Assembly (NCBI GenBank): GCA_943736015.1
Contig: OX031058.1
Span: forward strand, 1,131,001 to 1,195,000
Direction: 5' to 3'
DNA length: 64,000 nt
Source: Tridacna crocea
Taxonomy: Eukaryota; Mollusca; Bivalvia; Cardiida; Cardiidae
The notes under the pieces are model-generated. The model saw only the letters and a list, made by a program, of their open reading frames with translations. It was not told the DNA's origin and ran no database searches. The translations under genes and the position numbers were made by a program. This document shows positions 346 through 61,526 of the stretch, in pieces (the stretch's first letter is position 1; the number at the start of each line of letters is the position of its first letter).

Positions 346-440
346 GAAAACATTGTGGGAAAATGGAGAAAATGCTTCTTACCAGCATTTTCTCCATTTT
401 CCCACAATGTTTTCAAAAGATTTCTTTATCATGGGTCATT
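346..440 (-). mobile_element. Family A, hairpin core and short flank
   Basis: The hairpin is 346-414. Both arms carry the same extra T/A (AAAATGG and CCATTTT), so the change is symmetrical. The flank TTTCTTTATCATGGGTCAT matches the outer arm. The termini are lost. Confidence 0.7.
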
Positions 441-6149: not shown

Positions 6150-6537
6150 TAAGAAATAAGCTTCTATCTATCACGATTTATCGTGCAATAAACCACATTT
6201 GTGAGTTATGAGGCACAATAAATAAATCACGAGGGCGATAGCCCTGGTGGTTTATTTATTGTGCCTCATAACGCACAACGTGGTTTATTGAACGATACAC
6301 CACGATAGAAAGAAGATTATTTCAATTCTAACATGACCAATTCTTGATGAAAGGAAAAAACAACTTATAGTGGAAAACGCAGATGAAGATTATGTTCCAT
6401 TGAATAACTCATTTTATACAGTATGACGTCACTCTACGAGTATACAGAATGACGTCAGTCTACATGGAATGTCGCAGATTTTACGCTTTCGTAGCACAAT
6501 GTTTATAAAGCCGAATTCACGTATCATGTTAGAATCT
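6150..6537 (+). mobile_element. Family I element with terminal long hairpin
   Basis: A hairpin at about 6155-6325 (CAATAAACCACATTTGTGAG ... mirror, inner GAGGGCGATAGCCCT) leads into a body with GCAGATGAAGATTATGTTCC and repeated TGACGTCA sites, and ends in CATGTTAGAATC. The same module occurs twice, back to back, at 60736-61497. Confidence 0.8.
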
Positions 6538-14173: not shown

Positions 14174-14628
14174 ATGGAAGTGCACTTTCCACAAATTGGA
14201 AATGGAACGTTCCTGTTTAAGAATGACAGTAATTTTTCGCTATTTGATAGTGACAATAGTGAAGTTGATATATGTTTTAGGTTAATTGACGAACATAAAG
14301 ATTTCACACAACTTGTTTCCGTGACAGCAACAATCATCGTGGCGTATATCCTAGTCATGATTCTAGCCATATTAGGAAATGTTCTAGTTATATGGACCGT
14401 GTGGAAGAACAACCATATGCATACAGTGACCAATTATTATATTGTGAATTTGGCAGTCTCTGATATGTTGGTTGCCTGTCTTGTTATGCCATTAAAACTG
14501 TTGGAATATACGGCTGACTGTAAGTGGCAAGTGTTTCGTAGTAACGGGTTGTGCTCTGTGGTAACCTATCTCCTGCCGATCTTCGTGTTTGCGAGCGTCT
14601 TGACATTGGTGGCAATTTCGATAGAAAG
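14174..14628 (+). CDS. 5' coding exon of a class A (rhodopsin-like) peptide-type GPCR, TM1-TM3
   Basis: The first exon encodes about 151 residues of a plasma-membrane G-protein-coupled receptor. Seen: an extracellular N-terminus with N-glycosylation sequons at N10, N17 and N20; TM1 about 50-75 with GN (N69, position 1.50); intracellular loop 1 with HTVTNYYIVN; TM2 with LAVSD (D97, 2.50); conserved C127 at the top of TM3; TM3 ending ISIER, the start of the E/DRY motif. The frame runs into AG|GTAAAA at 14628/14629, a good splice donor that splits the Arg codon (phase 2). The ATG has A at -3 and G at +4, and a possible acceptor (pyrimidine run then CTAG) ends at 14144. Known: TVTNYxIVNLAxxD is typical of neuropeptide receptors (orexin/allatotropin, CCK, QRFP-like). 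Ligand class is not resolved. TM4-TM7 were not found in the window. Sure of class A GPCR, unsure of subfamily. Confidence 0.88.
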
Positions 14629-14640
14629 GTAAAAAAAAAT
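14629..14640 (+). promoter_or_regulatory. Splice donor ending the GPCR exon
   Basis: AAG|GTAAAAAAA directly follows the ISIER codons. Reading through gives a stop at 14630-14632, so splicing here is needed for the receptor to continue. Introns at the D/ERY position are common in peptide GPCR genes. Confidence 0.75.
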
Positions 14641-18339: not shown

Positions 18340-18518
18340 TTTTCACATAATATATATGTGACCTATCACGCAAACAGGGACCATCTGGGAATTCTGTCCA
18401 TCAGTTGGATGAAAACAGATCAACAATAGTGCAGGTCAGTTTAAGCTGATAATTCAAGAATGATTGTATAAAAAGGTACAATGAACACTTTACATACAGA
18501 AAATGTCATTAAAGCGAA

Positions 18519-18605
18519 ACGTGCCAACCCTGGTCAGACTGCGCAATTTGCGCAGTCTGACCAGGGTTGACACTTTTCGCAGTTCTCAGAAGGTCCCTTT
18601 TTGCT
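18519..18605. mobile_element. Family C/D-like hairpin
   Basis: The stem 18519-18582, GTGCCAACCCTGGTCAGACT with a mirrored arm around GCGCAATTTGCGC. Right flank AGAAGGTCCCTTTTTGC is a worn family C terminus. Confidence 0.75.
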
Positions 18606-19225: not shown

Positions 19226-19454
19226 TTAACCCATTACCACACAATCCCTAATTTTGACGCCCCTGAGAAAGAAGCCTTTTGAAAACACTGTGGTAAAAGG
19301 AGAAAATGCTGGTAACCAGCATTTTCTCCTTTTCCCACAGTGTTTTCTACCCTTCCCAGAAGAAATTTCAATTTTTCAGTCACCTTTATTTTGTCGTCTG
19401 CATTTGCTTTCAATTTGGACCAGTGTTAAATTTTCTTGTGTGGTACTGTGTTAA
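19226..19454 (+). mobile_element. Family A, complete
   Basis: TTAACCCATTACCACACAAT to TGTGGTACTGTGTTAA. In the hairpin (19281-19348) both arms carry the same T-to-C / A-to-G change (CACTGTGG and CCACAGTG). It sits 9 bases from the S2 SINE head. Confidence 0.9.
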
Positions 19455-23904: not shown

Positions 23905-24075
23905 GCTCAACAATCTATTACCCTTTGCAACTTGTTCTCGAATTTTACCTGCCCCTGAGAAAATAGGACTTTTGAAAACATTATGGGAAAAGGAGAAAAT
24001 GCTGCTTCACAGCAGCATTTTCTCCTTTTTCCGATAATGTTTTCTTTCAATTCAAAGACAAATTTCTTAATTTCG
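23905..24075 (+). mobile_element. Family A, termini worn
   Basis: The hairpin is 23973-24044 with a new centre GCTGCTTCACAGCAGC in place of the usual one. CCCCTGAGAAAATAGGACTT is the left block. Confidence 0.75.
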
Positions 24076-25454: not shown

Positions 25455-25958
25455 GTTTATATCGTCGCCATATTAGCGACTCCCCCTGAAGGCTGTTTGT
25501 ATTGTTACGGGGGATAGTGCAGATACAGGACGAAACCCATCCTAAGTTTCGCCTGGTTCTTTAACATGCTCGGTGTATAGCACCGTCACACGGGACCTCT
25601 GTTTAACGTCTCATCCGAAAGACTATTAGTAATTTTAGTTGGCCAGCCGTGGCGATCGAACACACACCTTTAACCCTTTCCCAAACAAGCCCTGGTTTTT
25701 GCGTGTCTGCAGTAAAAGTCTTTTGAAAACACTGTTGGAAAAGGAGAAATTGCTCGTAACGAGCAATTTCTCCTTTTCCCACAGTGTTTTCTACCCTTTT
25801 TGAGAACATTCTGCCATTTTCTCCAAATCTGAAATTGTCGTCTACAAACTGTTAGGGTTTGGAAGGGTCCAAAATTTGTCTTTTGGGAAAGGGTTAAGTG
25901 ACCTGAAACATCACTTTCACGAGTCCTATGCTCTACCAACTGGGCTATGCGGGCTGGT
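25455..25958 (-). mobile_element. MetaSINE-like SINE interrupted by family A
   Basis: The central block (GTCTCATCCGAAAGACTATT, GTATAGCACCGTCACACGGG) lies at 25500-25669. The tRNA head (CTCTACCAACTGGGCTATGC) lies at 25929-25948. Family A at 25670-25897 splits the B-box region at a TTAA. Confidence 0.85.
25670..25897 (+). mobile_element. Family A nested inside a SINE
   Basis: TTAACCCTTTCCCAAACAAG to TTTTGGGAAAGGGTTAA. The hairpin centre is GAAATTGCTCGTAACGAGCA and mirror, symmetrically changed from the consensus GAAAATGCTGG. The outer stem CACTGTTGG / CCACAGTG is also nearly symmetrical. Confidence 0.92.
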
Positions 25959-26011: not shown

Positions 26012-26240
26012 TTAACTCTTTACCAAACGACAAATTTTCAGACTAGTCCAAATTAAAAATATTTGCAGACTACAAAATAAAAGTGACTGAAAATTTGAAA
26101 TTTGTCTTTGGAAGGGTAGAAAACATTGTGGGAAAAGGAGAAAATGCTGGTTACCAGCATTTTCTCCTTTTCCCACAATGTTTTCTAAAGACTTCTTTCT
26201 CAGGGGCGTCAAAAGTAGGGATTGTGTGGTAATTGGTTAA
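26012..26240 (-). mobile_element. Family A, complete, sharing TTAA with family M
   Basis: TTAACTCTTTACCAAACGAC to GTGTGGTAATTGGTTAA. The hairpin 26119-26185 is essentially perfect. Its right TTAA (26237-26240) is also the left end of the next element. Confidence 0.92.
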
Positions 26241-26902: not shown

Positions 26903-27112
26903 TTAACCCTTATGCGACTCATTGCGACTCACTGACCTTTTGCGGACAGTGTAGATCAAGATCAGACTGCACAGAACGTGCAGTCTGATCTTGATCTACA
27001 CTGTCCGCTAAGGAGATATCTATCCGCCAAAAATGCCATTTCAAATAGGAGTTTGGGCTTTTACCAACGGCTAGAAAGTTCCATAAATTTTATTTGGCCT
27101 AATAAGGGTTAA
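26903..27112 (+). mobile_element. Family B, complete
   Basis: The best reference copy: TTAACCCTTATGCGACTC on the left, CCTAATAAGGGTTAA on the right, 210 bp. Hairpin 26942-27008 (GCGGACAGTGTAGATCAAGA, mirrored around CTGCACAGAACGTGCAG) is perfect by eye. TTAA ends and CCCTT termini resemble family A although the interiors are unrelated. Confidence 0.92.
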
Positions 27113-28080: not shown

Positions 28081-28300
28081 TTAGCCCTTTACCAAACAAT
28101 CCCTGGTTTTTATGACCCAGAGGAAGAAGCCTTTTGAAAACATTGTAGGAAAAGGAGAAAATGCTGGTAACCAGCATTTTCTCCTTTTCCTGCAATGTTT
28201 TCTTCCCTTCCTTAAACAAATTTCAATTCTAAAGTCACTTTTATTTTGTCTGCTTTCACTTTTAACCAGTCTTAATTTTTGTCCTTTGGTAAAGAGTTAA
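28081..28300 (+). mobile_element. Family A, nearly complete
   Basis: TTAGCCCTTTACCAAACAAT (TTAA mutated) to CTTTGGTAAAGAGTTAA. The hairpin is 28136-28203. Confidence 0.88.
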
Positions 28301-30183: not shown

Positions 30184-30456
30184 AAGAAATTTCTCGTGAT
30201 CTGATTGGATAATATGCCCCGAACATATATATCATGTACACTGGCAAAGCCAAGGTAAAAGCAGTTTTCCTTTGGGGAGCCCTGCATACAAGACTACACA
30301 ATCAACAAAACATCCAAAATGGTAGCGTCGATCAAGATTAACATCAAGGTTATGCGCCAAGCTGCACGTTTTAATACGTATTACCAAGGTTTCAGTGACT
30401 TCAGTTCCCAGTGACATACATTTTCATTGATTGGGGGCACCCAGAAGGCAAAATAC
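30184..30456 (+). mobile_element. Family E/P body abutting minisatellite K1
   Basis: GAAATTTCTCGTGATCTGAT, CTGGCAAAGCCAAGG, ATGCGCCAAGCTGCACG, CAAGGTTTCAGTGACTTCAG. Its GGGCACCCAGAAGGC end runs directly into the 27-bp array. Confidence 0.75.
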
Positions 30457-30643
30457 ATGCAAACTGCATCGAAGGCAACATAAACGCGAACTGCAAGGAA
30501 GACATCATAAAGGCAAACTACATCGAAGGTATCATAAACATGAGTTGCAACGAAAGCCTCATAAATGTGAACTGCATGGAGGGTACCATGAACGCGAACT
30601 GCAACGAAGGCACCATAAATGTGAACTGCCTTGAAGGCACTTA
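30457..30643 (+). repeat. 27-bp minisatellite K1 (~7 units)
   Basis: Unit AACTGCATCGAAGGCACCAT + AAACGCG with variants. The period of 27 (9 codons) keeps frames open without implying protein. Same unit as at 32471 and 35929. Confidence 0.88.
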
Positions 30644-32470: not shown

Positions 32471-32616
32471 CGCGGACTGCAGCAACAGCACCATAAACGC
32501 AAAATGCAACAAAGGCACCATAAACGTGAACTGCATCGAAGGCACCATAAACGCAAACTGCATCGAAGGCTCCATAAACAAGAACTGCATTGAAGGCTCC
32601 ATAAACAAGAACTGCA
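32471..32616 (+). repeat. 27-bp minisatellite K2 (~5 units)
   Basis: ACTGCATCGAAGGCACCATA and GGCTCCATAAACAAG variants. On its right it joins part of family L (32632-32797). Confidence 0.88.
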
Positions 32617-35928: not shown

Positions 35929-36346
35929 CGTGAACTGCAGCGACAGCACGATAAACGCGGACTGTAAAGACAGCACCCTTAACGCGGACTGCAACGACAG
36001 CACCCTTTTTACGTGGACTGCATCGAAGGCACCATAAACACGGACTGTAACGACAGCACCCTTAACGCGGACTGTAACGACAGCACCCTTAACGCGGACT
36101 GCAGTGACAGCACCATAAACGCGAACTGCAGTGACAGCACCATAAACGCGAACTCTATCGAAGGCACCATAAACATGGACTGTAACGACAGCACCCTTAA
36201 CGCGGACTGCAGTGACAGCACCATAAACGCGAACTCTATCGAAGGCACCATAATCGCTGACTGCAACGACAGCACCCTTTTACAAGTACTGCAGCGACAG
36301 CACCATAAACGCGAACTGCATCGAAGGCACCATAAACACGAACTGA
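35929..36346 (+). repeat. 27-bp minisatellite K3 (~15 units)
   Basis: Mix of two unit types: GAACTGCATCGAAGGCACCA+TAAACAC and GGACTGTAACGACAGCACCC+TTAACGC, in higher-order order. Both strands read open because 27 is divisible by 3. Confidence 0.9.
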
Positions 36347-38594: not shown

Positions 38595-38803
38595 TTAACC
38601 CTTGTCCTGCTAAATAACTAAATATGGAATTTTGAATTCTATAGTAAAATCCTTACGATCGCAATTTCAAAGTTATGTGTTGGGGAATAATATCCCTTTA
38701 GCGGACTGTGTAGATCAAGATCAGTCTGCACAGAATGTGCAGTCTGATCTTGATCTACACTGTCCGATAAAGGTCAGTGAGTCGATTAGCTGCCTAGGGG
38801 AAA
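38595..38803 (-). mobile_element. Family B, nearly complete
   Basis: TTAACCCTTGTCCTGCTAAA on the left; hairpin 38702-38766; right AAAGGTCAGTGAGTCGATTA, GCTGCCTAGGGG (final TTAA lost). Confidence 0.88.
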
Positions 38804-38971: not shown

Positions 38972-39200
38972 TTAAATCTTTACCAGACGACAAAATTTCA
39001 GCCTTGTCCAAATTGAAAGCATTTGCAGACGACTATTTCAATGTGGCTCAAACAATACAATTATTTTTTGATGGAGTAGAAAACGTTTTGGGAAAAGAAG
39101 AAAATGCTGGTTACCAGAATTTTCCTTCTGTCCCAAAATGTTTTCCAAAGGCTTCTTTCCCAGGGTCCTTAAAAGTCGTACTTGTATGGTAAAGGGTTAA
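38972..39200 (-). mobile_element. Family A, complete, sharing TTAA with family O
   Basis: TTAAATCTTTACCAGACGAC to GTATGGTAAAGGGTTAA. The hairpin 39069-39150 is partly worn (TTACCAGAATTTTCC). Its right TTAA 39197-39200 opens the next element. Confidence 0.88.
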
Positions 39201-43399: not shown

Positions 43400-44130
43400 T
43401 CGAAATAGCACCGAAAGTTCCTTCTGACATGAAAAGGCATAAAACAATGTGGAGGAAGGAAAAGGGAAAATGCTGATTACAAGCGTTTTCGATTTATTTT
43501 CCACCACGATAATTTTTCTTAAAGACTTATCTTTCTCGGAATCGTCTAACCATTTACTATACAGTTCCGAGCTTTAACTCTTTGCCAAACGACAGAATTT
43601 AGACTTAACCAGATTGTAGGCATTTGTAGATGACAAAATAAACGTAACTAAAAAAATTTAATTTGTTTCTGGCACGGTGGAAAACATTGTGGGAAAAGGA
43701 GAAAATGCTGGTTACCAGCATTTTCTCCTTTTCCCACAATGTTTTCAAAAGGCTTCTATCTAAGGGTAGTGAAAACCAGGGATTATTTGGTAAAGGGTTA
43801 ACGCTCCTGGGAAGAATCTGCCTGGAATCAAAGTGGGAAAAACGCAAAAGTAGATGGCCATCATTTTCTCCTTTTCCCACAATGTTTCTTATACTTTCCA
43901 AGAGAAATCCCGTTATTTGAGTAACATTCGGTTTTATCGTTTGCAAATTGTTCTTTCAGAAACAACATGAAAAAAAAAAAAAGAAATATGGAAATGTGGA
44001 AAAACGGAAAATGCTGGTTACAATATTTTTTTTTCCTTTTGCCAAAATGTTTTCTACATTTCCAAGAAAAATTCGATTAATTGAGGCCATTTTAATTTGT
44101 CGTCTGCAAATGCTTCAGTTTGGACAAGTT
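43400..44130. mobile_element. Four family A elements in succession
   Basis: Worn hairpin 43447-43516; complete copy 43574-43801 (TTAACTCTTTGCCAAACGAC to TTTGGTAAAGGGTTAA, perfect hairpin 43679-43746); partial 43830-43890 (AAGTGGGAAAAACGC / CTCCTTTTCCCACAATG); partial 43990-44060. The third starts at the TTAA of the second (43798-43801). Confidence 0.82.
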
Positions 44131-44333: not shown

Positions 44334-44562
44334 TTAACTGTTTCCCAAACAATCCCTGCTTTTTACAGGTTTGGAATAGTTGCCTTTTGAAAACATTGTG
44401 GGAAAAGGAGAAAATGCTGGTAACCAGCATTTTCTCCTTTTCCCACAATGTTTTCTACCCAATCATAGACAGAAATCATCTTTTCAGCAAGAGTTGAAAT
44501 GTTGTCTGCAGATGCTTTCAATTTGGTCTAGTCTAAAAGTTTGTCGTTTGGGAAAGGGTTAA
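44334..44562 (+). mobile_element. Family A between two tRNA-derived repeats
   Basis: TTAACTGTTTCCCAAACAAT to GTTTGGGAAAGGGTTAA. Hairpin 44389-44456 is perfect by eye. Confidence 0.92.
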
Positions 44563-44890: not shown

Positions 44891-45101
44891 TTAACCCTTA
44901 AAGTGCTGATTAAAACCAGAGGCATTTATAAATAGGAAAAACATCTGAAATATTGCTGTACCAAGGTTATTTTTGCCATAATATGAAACAACATAGTGGA
45001 CAGAGTAGATCCAAGATCAGACTGCACGTTCTGTGCAGTCTGATCTTGATCTACACTGTCCACAAAACAAGTTAAGTTGGTTCCAGCGCTTTAAGTGTTA
45101 A
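44891..45101 (-). mobile_element. Family B, complete
   Basis: TTAACCCTTAAAGTGCTG and CAGCGCTTTAAGTGTTAA are clear inverted ends. Hairpin 44997-45062, outer arms TGGACAG / CTGTCCA changed symmetrically from CGGACAG. Confidence 0.92.
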
Positions 45102-46489: not shown

Positions 46490-46640
46490 TACTAATTATT
46501 GACTATTAAGCTGTTAAGAACGACTAACTGACCTTCTGCGGACAGTGTAGATTAAGATCAGACTGCACAGAATATTCTGTGCAGTCTGATCTTGGTCTAC
46601 ACCGTTCGAAACTGGTCAGTCAGTCGCGCTTAATATCAAA
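46490..46640. mobile_element. Family B with extended palindrome
   Basis: Hairpin 46538-46608 with the centre GCACAGAATATTCTGTGC. Pairing carries on outward (AACGACTAACTGACC / GGTCAGTCAGTCGCG), so most of this copy is one palindrome. 46641-46960 shows nothing. Confidence 0.82.
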
Positions 46641-51977: not shown

Positions 51978-52044
51978 GCGGACGACAAAGTTCAAGATCA
52001 GACTGCACAGAACGTGCAGTCTGATCTTGATCTTTGTCGTCTGC
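51978..52044. mobile_element. Family B hairpin with a co-changed stem
   Basis: GCGGACGACAAAGTTCAAGA against TCTTGATCTTTGTCGTCTGC. Both arms read GACAAAG/CTTTGTC where other copies read CAGTGTAG/CTACACTG. Confidence 0.82.
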
Positions 52045-53579: not shown

Positions 53580-54559
53580 TTAATTCTTTTTACCGTGCAA
53601 TTCCTAGTTTTAATAACCTCTCTGACGACTTGTGAAATGGTCCTTTTGAAAACATTGTGGGAAAAGAAGAAAATGCTGGTAACCAGCATTTTCTTCTTTT
53701 CCCACAATGCTTTTTTTTCTATACTTTTCAGGACGAGATCCTTTAACCTATTACTATACAATCCATACTTTTGACGACCCTGAGAAAGAAGCTTTTAGAA
53801 AACATTGTGGCAAAAAGGAGAAAATGTTGGTAACCAACATTTTCTGCTTTTCCAACAATGTTTTCTATACTTTTAGGGACCAGATCCTTTAACGTATTAC
53901 CACACAATCCATACTTTTGACGACCCTGAGAAAGAAGCTTTTAAAAAACATTGTGGCAAAAAGGAGAAAATGCTGGTAACCAACATTTTCTTCTTTTCCC
54001 ACAATGTTTCTTACCCTTCCCGAAAAAAAATAAGATTTTCAATCACTTTAATTCTGTCGTCTGCACATGCTTTCGATTTGGACAAGTCTAAAATATTGTC
54101 CTTTGGTAGTGAGTTAAGCGACCTTTTAGGAAAAAGGCTTTTGAAAAAATTGTGGGAAAAGAAGAAAATGCTGGTTACCAGCATTTTCTTCTTTTTTTAC
54201 AAAATTTTTTATACTATTAAAAGCAAAAACAAATTATTTTGAGCCACCCTTTTTCTGTGGTGTACAAATGCTTTCAATTTCGACGAATTAAAAAAATGTG
54301 CTATGTGGTAGATTGATTGGTTATGTGGTGTTTTACCCTTTCCCAAATGGCAAATTTTGGACCAGACCAAATTGAAAGCATTTTGCAGATGACAAATTAA
54401 CAGTTGCTAAAAAGATTGTTTCTTACATGATAGGGCAGAAAACATTGTGGGAAAAGGAGAAAATGCTGGTCACCAGCATTCTCTCCTTTTCCCACAATGT
54501 TTTCAAAAGGCTTCTATTCCTGACCCGTAAAAACAAGGGATTTTTTGGGAAAGGGTTAA
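53580..54559. mobile_element. Run of five family A elements joined at TTAA
   Basis: Units start at the TTAAs at 53580, 53743, 53889, 54114 and about 54331, and the last ends at 54556-54559. The first three share orientation and a period of about 150, with the same truncated right part (CTATACTTTT..GACCAGATCCTTTAA). The fifth is reversed and full length. Hairpins: 53648-53712, 53797-53864, 53945-54008, 54136-54205, 54437-54505. Confidence 0.9.
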
Positions 54560-60735: not shown

Positions 60736-61497
60736 TCTAACATGACACGCGGATTTGGCTCCATAAACACAGTGCAAGGAAAACGTGGTAAAATTAAGAA
60801 ATAATCTTCTTTCTATCGTGGTATATCGTTCAATAAACCACAGTTGTGAGTTATGAGGCACAATAAATAATCCACGAGGGCGATAGCCCGAGTGGGTTAT
60901 TTATTGCGCCTCATAACTCACAACGTGGTTTATTGAACGATATAGCACGATAGAAAGAAGATTATTTCGATTCTAACATGGCCAATTCTTAATGAAAGGA
61001 AAACACGCTCAAACAAAGAGTAAAAATGCGGATGAAGATTATGTTCCATTGAATAACTCACTCATTGAATGACGTCACCCGATATAGGATGACGTCACTC
61101 TACATGGATTGTTGCAGATTTTACCACGTTTGCCTTGCACTGTGTTTATAGAGCCAAAGTCGCGTGTCATGTTAGAATCTGCGACAATCCATGTAGAGTG
61201 ACGTCATCCTATAGCGAGTGACGTCATTCAATGAGTTGGTTATTCAATGGAACATAATCTTCATCCGCGTTTTTACTCTCAGTTTGAACTTGTTTTCCTT
61301 TCATTAAGAATTCGCCATGTTAGAATCGAAATAATCTTCTTTCTATTGTGGTATATCGTTCAATAAACCACGTTGTGAGTTATGAGGCGCAATAAATAAC
61401 CCACTCGGGCTATCGCCCTCGTGGATTAGTTATTGTGCCTCATAACTCACAACTGTGGTTTATTGAACGATAAACCACGATAGAAAGAAGATTATTT
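60736..61497. mobile_element. Double family I: nested palindrome of ~760 bp
   Basis: A full element 60736-61183 has ~59-bp terminal inverted repeats (TTCTAACATGACACGCGG..ACGTGGTAAAA and mirror). It carries a 160-bp hairpin at 60804-60968 (CAATAAACCACAGTTGTGAG ... mirror). A second, inverted module follows (61184-61497) with its own hairpin 61330-61490, so 60800-61490 is also one large palindrome with a palindrome in each arm. Confidence 0.88.
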
Positions 61498-61526
61498 CTT
61501 AATTAAACTAGTGGAGGGAAATGTTA

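Follow-up and report, generated by a model that had tools for sequence, protein, structure and literature searches.

The window (the whole stretch of DNA analysed, 64,000 nucleotides long) lies in an assembly of 1.05 Gb in 31 contigs and contains 45 palindromes, versus 0 in a 64-kb Markov control. A palindrome scan of the window and 20 further 10-kb places (264 kb) returned 151 palindromes, 94 of which fall into one cluster whose best members belong to a single hairpin family, family A. In nhmmer searches of the 64-kb window with one query copy each (E up to 0.05), 40 places were assigned to family A and 23 to family B or related hairpins. Other features of the window include an exon-like open reading frame (ORF) at 14174-14632 that encodes part of a receptor of the rhodopsin type (PF00001, E 1e-22) and that, along with the size of the assembly, suggests an animal, and a tRNA-like match at 1306-1378 (Rfam RF00005, 31.8 bits), which was not called by ARAGORN and is possibly a tRNA-derived SINE. 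A 27-bp repeat forms three separate, seemingly related arrays (30444-30639, 32476-32616, and 35934-36345) that lie partly in ORFs. An inverted repeat at 60792-61504 (335 bp, 95% complementary, 43 nt apart) holds a member of an ~80-bp hairpin family, which is also found at 6199-6278 and in the sampled places L017, L025, and L013.

Alignment of the copies with their flanks places the family A hairpin at the centre of an element of ~229 bp. The palindrome itself is 67 bp long, with two 33-bp arms and one unpaired centre base. The aligned element begins with TTAAC(C/T)CTTTACCAAAC at its 5' end and finishes with GTTTGGTAAAGGGTTAA at its 3' end, and its terminal inverted repeats are CCCTTTACC-like. 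Both ends could be aligned in 175 of the 204 copies; of these, 81 have exact TTAA at each end, 115 have it at the 5' end, and 116 have it at the 3' end, and ends other than exact TTAA are due to mutation, truncation or misalignment. The first four positions are followed by CTCTT (35/175), CCCTT (31/175) or CTCAT (15/175), and the last four are preceded by AAGGG (48/175) or ATGGG (28/175). The piggyBac superfamily is described as having TTAA target duplications and inverted repeats with CCCTT-type 5' ends (PMC10813416). These features are common to piggyBac MITEs and family A, whereas a conserved internal perfect palindrome is a feature of family A that is not part of the available piggyBac description in that source. 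Since ~229 bp is too short to encode ~500 residues, family A has no transposase gene of its own. By its ends and length, it is a non-autonomous piggyBac-like MITE.

The 31-bp core of family A has 183,553 exact matches in the genome. Its hairpins are unevenly spread in the sampled places, with 22 in one 10-kb place (L009) versus a mean of ~7 per 10 kb (139 in 200 kb), and none in 4 of the 20 (L011, L012, L017, and L025). Five hairpins (L020:953, 3057, 5162, 7266, and 9371) are identical in arms and flanks and are spaced by ~2,104 bp; these form a tandem array, with the MITE lying within its unit. A search for the core in viral contigs gave 0 matches, in a collection from which records near the source genome were possibly excluded. 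None of the open-access papers listed in text searches describes the element, as judged by titles and abstract openings.

Several copies in the window retain intact arms, including a perfect consensus hairpin at 26119..26185 (plus strand) and two hairpins with unchanged arms whose flanks are 16% (43680..43746, plus strand) and 25% (44389..44455, minus strand) off the consensus. According to the sequence-only reading, other copies carry the same change in both arms, and this is the case; the family A and B sequences quoted in that reading were recovered in place or within a few bases. For instance, 19G>A is two-sided (AAGAAG/CTTCTT) at 53648..53719 (minus strand); of 169 genome copies, 5 have 19A in both arms, where 1.6 would be expected, and 23 have it in one arm. 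At 53798..53865 (minus strand), within a 146-bp tandem array, 28C>T is two-sided (GTTGG/CCAAC), and the copy at 53944..54011 (minus strand) has the same change in its left arm only (element orientation), as would an intermediate. The right arms of these two copies differ twice, and both times the changed base fits the left arm of its own copy. The hairpin at 346..414 (plus strand) has a paired one-base insertion (T on the left, A on the right), the sole symmetric insertion among the 169 copies, 44 of which have any insertion in the hairpin. The hairpin at 19281..19347 (minus strand) has a two-sided 7T>C (CACTGTGG/CCACAGTG) and belongs to subfamily S2, and that at 25725..25791 (minus strand), of subfamily S1, has two-sided 25A>T and 30G>C (GCTCGTTACGAGC, element strand) as well as 7T>C. 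Further two-sided changes are 9G>A in a copy with an altered loop (23974..24044, minus strand), 11G>A (28136..28202, minus strand), 9G>T with 19G>A and six one-sided changes (39079..39145, plus strand), and 5C>A with 19G>A, four one-sided changes and centre A (54143..54211, minus strand).

Of the 40 family A copies in the window, 29 were usable, 11 being truncated or too decayed. Their arms show 17 two-sided, 111 one-sided, and 7 non-matching pair positions, versus a mean of 4.1 two-sided changes (maximum 15) in 20,000 whole-arm shuffles. Symmetrical change is therefore above chance. Mismatching arms are nonetheless the rule, with 111 of 135 changed pair positions one-sided; the mismatch that the sequence-only reading expected of random decay is thus what family A mostly shows. 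When the window copies are divided by hand according to age, the excess lies in the younger ones (n = 22; 13 two-sided vs. 1.6 expected), and the old copies have none (n = 7; 4 vs. 3.6).

A larger sample consisted of the window, 20 10-kb places at round coordinates, and seven 3-kb loci similar to a window copy, and because these seven entered by similarity it is not wholly random. It yielded 204 family A copies, 169 of them usable, including the five identical L020 array copies. In the arms of these genome copies, one-sided changes dominate (682 one-sided, 91 two-sided, and 28 non-matching). In the main family (146 copies), the two-sided changes number 35 versus 29.0 in age-matched shuffles (p = 0.12). 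Main-family copies with six or fewer changes (n = 96) have 16 versus 5.7 when age-matched (p = 0.0003), and a residue is therefore left in the younger copies; the remaining 50 have 19 versus 23.4 expected. Either small unsampled subfamilies, or more correction than is seen in the two changes counted genome-wide (below), would account for this excess in young copies.

The first source of symmetry is descent. Five variants (25T, 30C, 7C, 20T, and 13C) make up 53 of the 91 two-sided changes; 25T, 30C, 20T, and 13C mark subfamily S1 (with S1b), and 7C marks S2. Two-sided carriers resemble each other in their flanks for 20T (identity 0.744 mutually vs. 0.553 to the rest) and 7C (0.798 vs. 0.697), and only slightly for 25T (0.638 vs. 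0.575). One-sided carriers of the five variants have flank identities of 0.556-0.614, under the overall mean of 0.648. Two of the examples above, 19281-19347 and 25725-25791, bear such marker variants. Variants outside the five markers are two-sided 38 times versus 16.2 in a shuffle without age matching. Most two-sided changes in the sample are subfamily markers or are about as many as coincidence would produce in copies of mixed age. The sequence-only reading had named a few master subfamilies behind the symmetrical variants as the finding that would count against it, and they are largely what is found, with a residual excess beyond them. Inheritance and coincidence might even explain everything, the residue being small subfamilies and the centre base (below) a point-mutation hot spot. 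The subfamily markers favour this explanation, as does the non-significant excess over all main-family copies.

The opposite explanation sees the main cause of symmetry in the correction of one arm from the other, by template switching or gene conversion, within each resident copy. In addition to the two-sided excess in younger copies and the two right arms at 53798-53865 and 53944-54011, it draws support from genome-wide counts of exact core patterns, which cover two changes (27A and 28T, the latter being the change at 53798-53865; both are transitions) and one unmatched control (28T on one side with 27A on the other). One-sided 28T occurs in 4,240 copies and one-sided 27A in 5,890; the two-sided forms occur in 110 and 139, respectively, and the unmatched double in 167. 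Under independence, 24.5, 47.3, and 68.0 would be expected for these three doubles. The 2.45-fold excess of the unmatched double is taken to reflect copies of different age, and adjusting for it raises the expectation for the matched doubles to 60.1 (28T) and 116.0 (27A). Matched doubles still exceed unmatched ones, with an odds ratio of 2.20 (95% CI 1.48-3.26; p = 9e-5), which speaks against inheritance and coincidence alone. The surplus, for which arm homogenisation beyond coincidence and small unseen subfamilies are the candidates, amounts to ~1.1% of 28T carriers and ~0.4% of 27A carriers; local correction is therefore small.

The flanks of 20 fetched copies among the 110 with two-sided 28T are scattered and form no evident clade, another point against inheritance alone. 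The nearest flank relative lies outside the 28T set for 18 of the 20 and inside it for two (L032 and L034), in a test where the larger comparison sample favours outside relatives; mean flank identity is 0.678 among the two-sided 28T copies versus 0.648 in the whole sample. On the other hand, these copies are also more changed elsewhere in the outer arms (3.45 of 36 positions, n = 20, vs. 2.29 in cores with one change, n = 24), as expected of older double-hit copies, and this fits inheritance and coincidence alone.

As the main cause, correction inside resident copies was rejected on the counts (682 one-sided vs. 91 two-sided changes; 53 of 91 subfamily markers; an excess of 1.1% and 0.4%), and we hold it to be quite improbable. 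Nor do the arms of one copy mismatch less (118/949) than an arm does when paired with the opposite arm of its nearest flank relative (102/955 and 95/951), a comparison that was set aside as biased toward cleaner copies.

The centre base supplies a separate indication of events within resident copies. Of 142 oriented main-family copies, 124 have T at the centre, 13 have A, 3 have C, and 2 have G, and the nearest flank relative of the A-centre copies has centre T in 12 of 13. The ratio of T>A to T>C at the centre (13:3) differs from that in the arms (47:78; p = 0.001), the flanks giving 407:530. Genome-wide, a 56-bp pattern oriented by the 3' flank counted 10,224 centres with T, 888 with A, and 323 with C, so that T>A is 2.7 times T>C, versus 0.6-0.8 elsewhere. 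Scaled from C, 195-248 A centres would be expected, leaving an excess of ~640-690 copies (5.6-6.1%). In a comparison of 19 A-centre and 20 T-centre copies, mean flank identities were 0.744 (A-A), 0.741 (A-T), and 0.733 (T-T), the nearest neighbour had the same centre base for 23 of the 39 copies versus 19.0 in shuffles (p = 0.15), and the left arms were equally clean in both groups. The A-centre copies form no flank clade, and the centre change therefore arose many times.

We infer that the A excess probably comes from template switching or a cruciform-type inversion, in keeping with the spacer inversion that, in the available account of template switching between inverted repeats, occurs together with arm homogenisation (PMC8604942). 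Alternatively, the tip of the hairpin could be a hot spot for T>A mutation, and centre T>C (3.2% of T) is itself above the 1.2-1.6% per arm of 28T and 27A. The change of the centre base in ~6% of copies is a further point for correction in place, and, as a rough inference, ~6% flipping and ~1% copying are of the same order if half of the events meet a difference and half of those yield a double. The centre bias, like the odds ratio, goes against inheritance and coincidence alone, an explanation that we regard as distinctly unlikely.

While resident copies decay, the lineages they belong to keep their palindromes. Flank-only clustering of 147 copies placed 87 and 105 in clusters of 4 or more, and at thresholds of 0.28 and 0.32 the fixed arm differences were 4 two-sided and 0 one-sided; at a threshold of 0.22 they were 4 two-sided and 2 one-sided, the latter with support of 0.6-0.8. 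All four fixed two-sided differences occur in one cluster of 5 copies. In other clusters, 18, 23 or 30 of ~155 flank positions have changed with the arms unchanged. The hairpin is far less changed than its flanks: leaving out the edge windows, low-change main-family copies mismatch the consensus by 0.02-0.06 within the hairpin and by 0.14-0.31 outside it. Choosing copies for low change depresses the hairpin value, which makes the cluster consensuses the stronger evidence. Across the hairpin edges, two 10-bp windows have a mismatch of 0.11-0.15; it peaks at 0.18-0.31 in the adjoining flanks and falls to 0.14-0.20 toward the element ends. Diffuse gene conversion between copies was rejected as the cause of hairpin conservation, as the profile shows no gradual increase with distance from the hairpin. 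For the 14 closest pairs (flank difference 0.065), the arm difference is 0.044, a ratio of 0.69, and the ratio is ~0.4 at flank differences of 0.20-0.35. Recent decay is thus nearly common to arms and flanks, and older divergence is not; the close-pair ratio, being less than 1, may reflect slight arm protection even in recent copies. Read together, these data suggest that amplifying copies keep the hairpin and that the others lose it.

A selected stem is classically recognised by two-sided substitutions, and to that extent the family A pattern resembles selection for an RNA hairpin, such as a small RNA precursor. However, each of the four fixed two-sided changes of S1b flips a pair (from G-C to C-G or from A-T to T-A), which cannot pass through a G-U pair, and 25725-25791 has two of these four. 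In addition, the loop is 1 nt, and an Rfam search of the window at the gathering threshold gave only the tRNA-like match elsewhere. An RNA stem was rejected on the four pair flips, and such selection is highly improbable. Alternatively, the arms could be inverted binding sites for a protein that acts as a dimer, either a transposase or a host factor; the two arms would then track this one protein, and so would change together without a need to pair. The arm sequence itself, beyond its pairing, is conserved across lineages with diverged flanks, as this would predict. On the other hand, two 33-bp arms with a 1-nt centre would be long for a single dimer site, and symmetry is kept over the whole arm and not over a motif, which makes such sites an unlikely basis of the pattern.

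Family B hairpins, partly within another TTAA-ended element as judged by eye, follow a plan related to group C, whose possible resemblance to bivalve repeats would suggest a bivalve. Perfect 31-bp arms are found at 26942..27008 (plus strand). The two symmetrical examples claimed for family B are as described: the hairpin at 44998..45062 (minus strand) has a two-sided 5C>T, and that at 51981..52041 (plus strand) has a block of 5 adjacent positions altered in both arms. This block is the one case of a clustered multi-base change; it may be a single event and counts in favour of correction in place. By-eye comparison with the flanks common to other B copies shows an inverted loop at 38701..38766 (plus strand), which adds to the centre-base evidence for spacer inversion. 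At 46514..46633, the palindrome of a B copy extends into both flanks (60-bp arms, 82% complementary), which looks like a fold-back of one element half, as if it had been copied over the other. A C3 hairpin at 18514..18580 (plus strand) shares the plan of B with symmetrical differences.

In 15 usable family B copies out of 17, 11 changes are two-sided versus 2.7 expected (p = 0.00045) and 53 are one-sided, and 5 of the 11 are the single block at 51981-52041. Consensus arms of B, C1, C2, and C3 (n = 32, 22, 8, and 4) have two-sided differences at 5-10 of 30 positions, and otherwise differ at 0-2, whereas single copies within these groups have 326 one-sided and 50 two-sided changes; the groups were recovered via palindromic seeds, which biases them toward symmetry. 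One consensus position is asymmetric in each of B, C1, and C2, and this also holds for S1a and S1b. C1 hairpins occur in inverted pairs ~123 bp apart (L014:2447/2570, L019:7631/7754, and L007:2844/2967; likewise L018:4842/4965, L021:3843/3966, and L022:4906/5031), as though the two terminal repeats of a single short element folded into separate hairpins.

Taken together, we think it likely that the symmetry of family A has several origins: subfamily inheritance and coincidence, with a small share of correction or inversion, against a background of intact hairpins in amplifying lineages and one-arm decay in residents. The sequence-only reading is partly supported: of the two causes it put forward, arm correction is small, and pairing selection is one possible reason for the maintenance of symmetry in amplifying lineages that the subfamily consensuses support. 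Resident copies decay mostly one arm at a time; in the proposed sequence of events, replication template switching or cruciform-type inversion between their arms would produce matched doubles and centre flips, probably adding a small, countable share. Only copies with an intact palindrome would amplify further, or amplification itself would rebuild the palindrome, so that amplifying lineages would keep pairing arms while residents drift. Pairing selection, a shared binding protein or palindrome rebuilding may each be the keeper of symmetry in amplifying lineages, and the three would look alike from sequence alone. A bolder version, which we offer tentatively as possible but doubtful, has the palindrome as the element's replicating heart, itself under selection: amplification would need or rebuild a perfect hairpin, the arms would evolve as one in the amplifying lineages (likewise in B and C), and the centres of resident copies would keep flipping as the arms exchange strands, so that the rate could be read from ~10^5 parallel copies.

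Parallels exist in other systems, as far as the available portions of the sources describe them. Arm homogenisation, clustered changes, and spacer inversion are reported for quasipalindrome correction, and each has a possible parallel here; those are single events in yeast genes, whereas here ~180,000 identical palindromic cores make the affected share countable (Abraham and Hazkani-Covo, 2021; PMC8604942). Template switching is described as creating and maintaining RNA hairpins, with multi-base compensatory stem changes that may have a counterpart here, but in RNA genes under selection, whereas family A is a non-coding mobile element that inherited much of its symmetry (Monttinen and Loytynoja, 2022; PMC8794818). 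REPINs are likewise short, palindromic, non-autonomous mobile DNA with a conserved hairpin unit in which compensatory changes are said to be common; unlike family A, a TTAA-ended element in what is apparently an animal genome, they are bacterial and lie near RAYT tyrosine transposases (PMC3116915). The TTAA ends of family A point away from mobilisation by RAYT. The mechanism is already known, and the family A element, itself of a known kind, is unusually fit for measuring it.

Paired changes are usually taken as proof of selection on a stem. In family A, three sources of symmetry can be separated, namely inherited markers, chance coincidence among old copies, and possible arm-to-arm copying in a small share, and shuffles that are blind to subfamily and age overstate arm correction. 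With 183,553 identical cores in one genome, it becomes possible to count how often palindromes are inverted and corrected.
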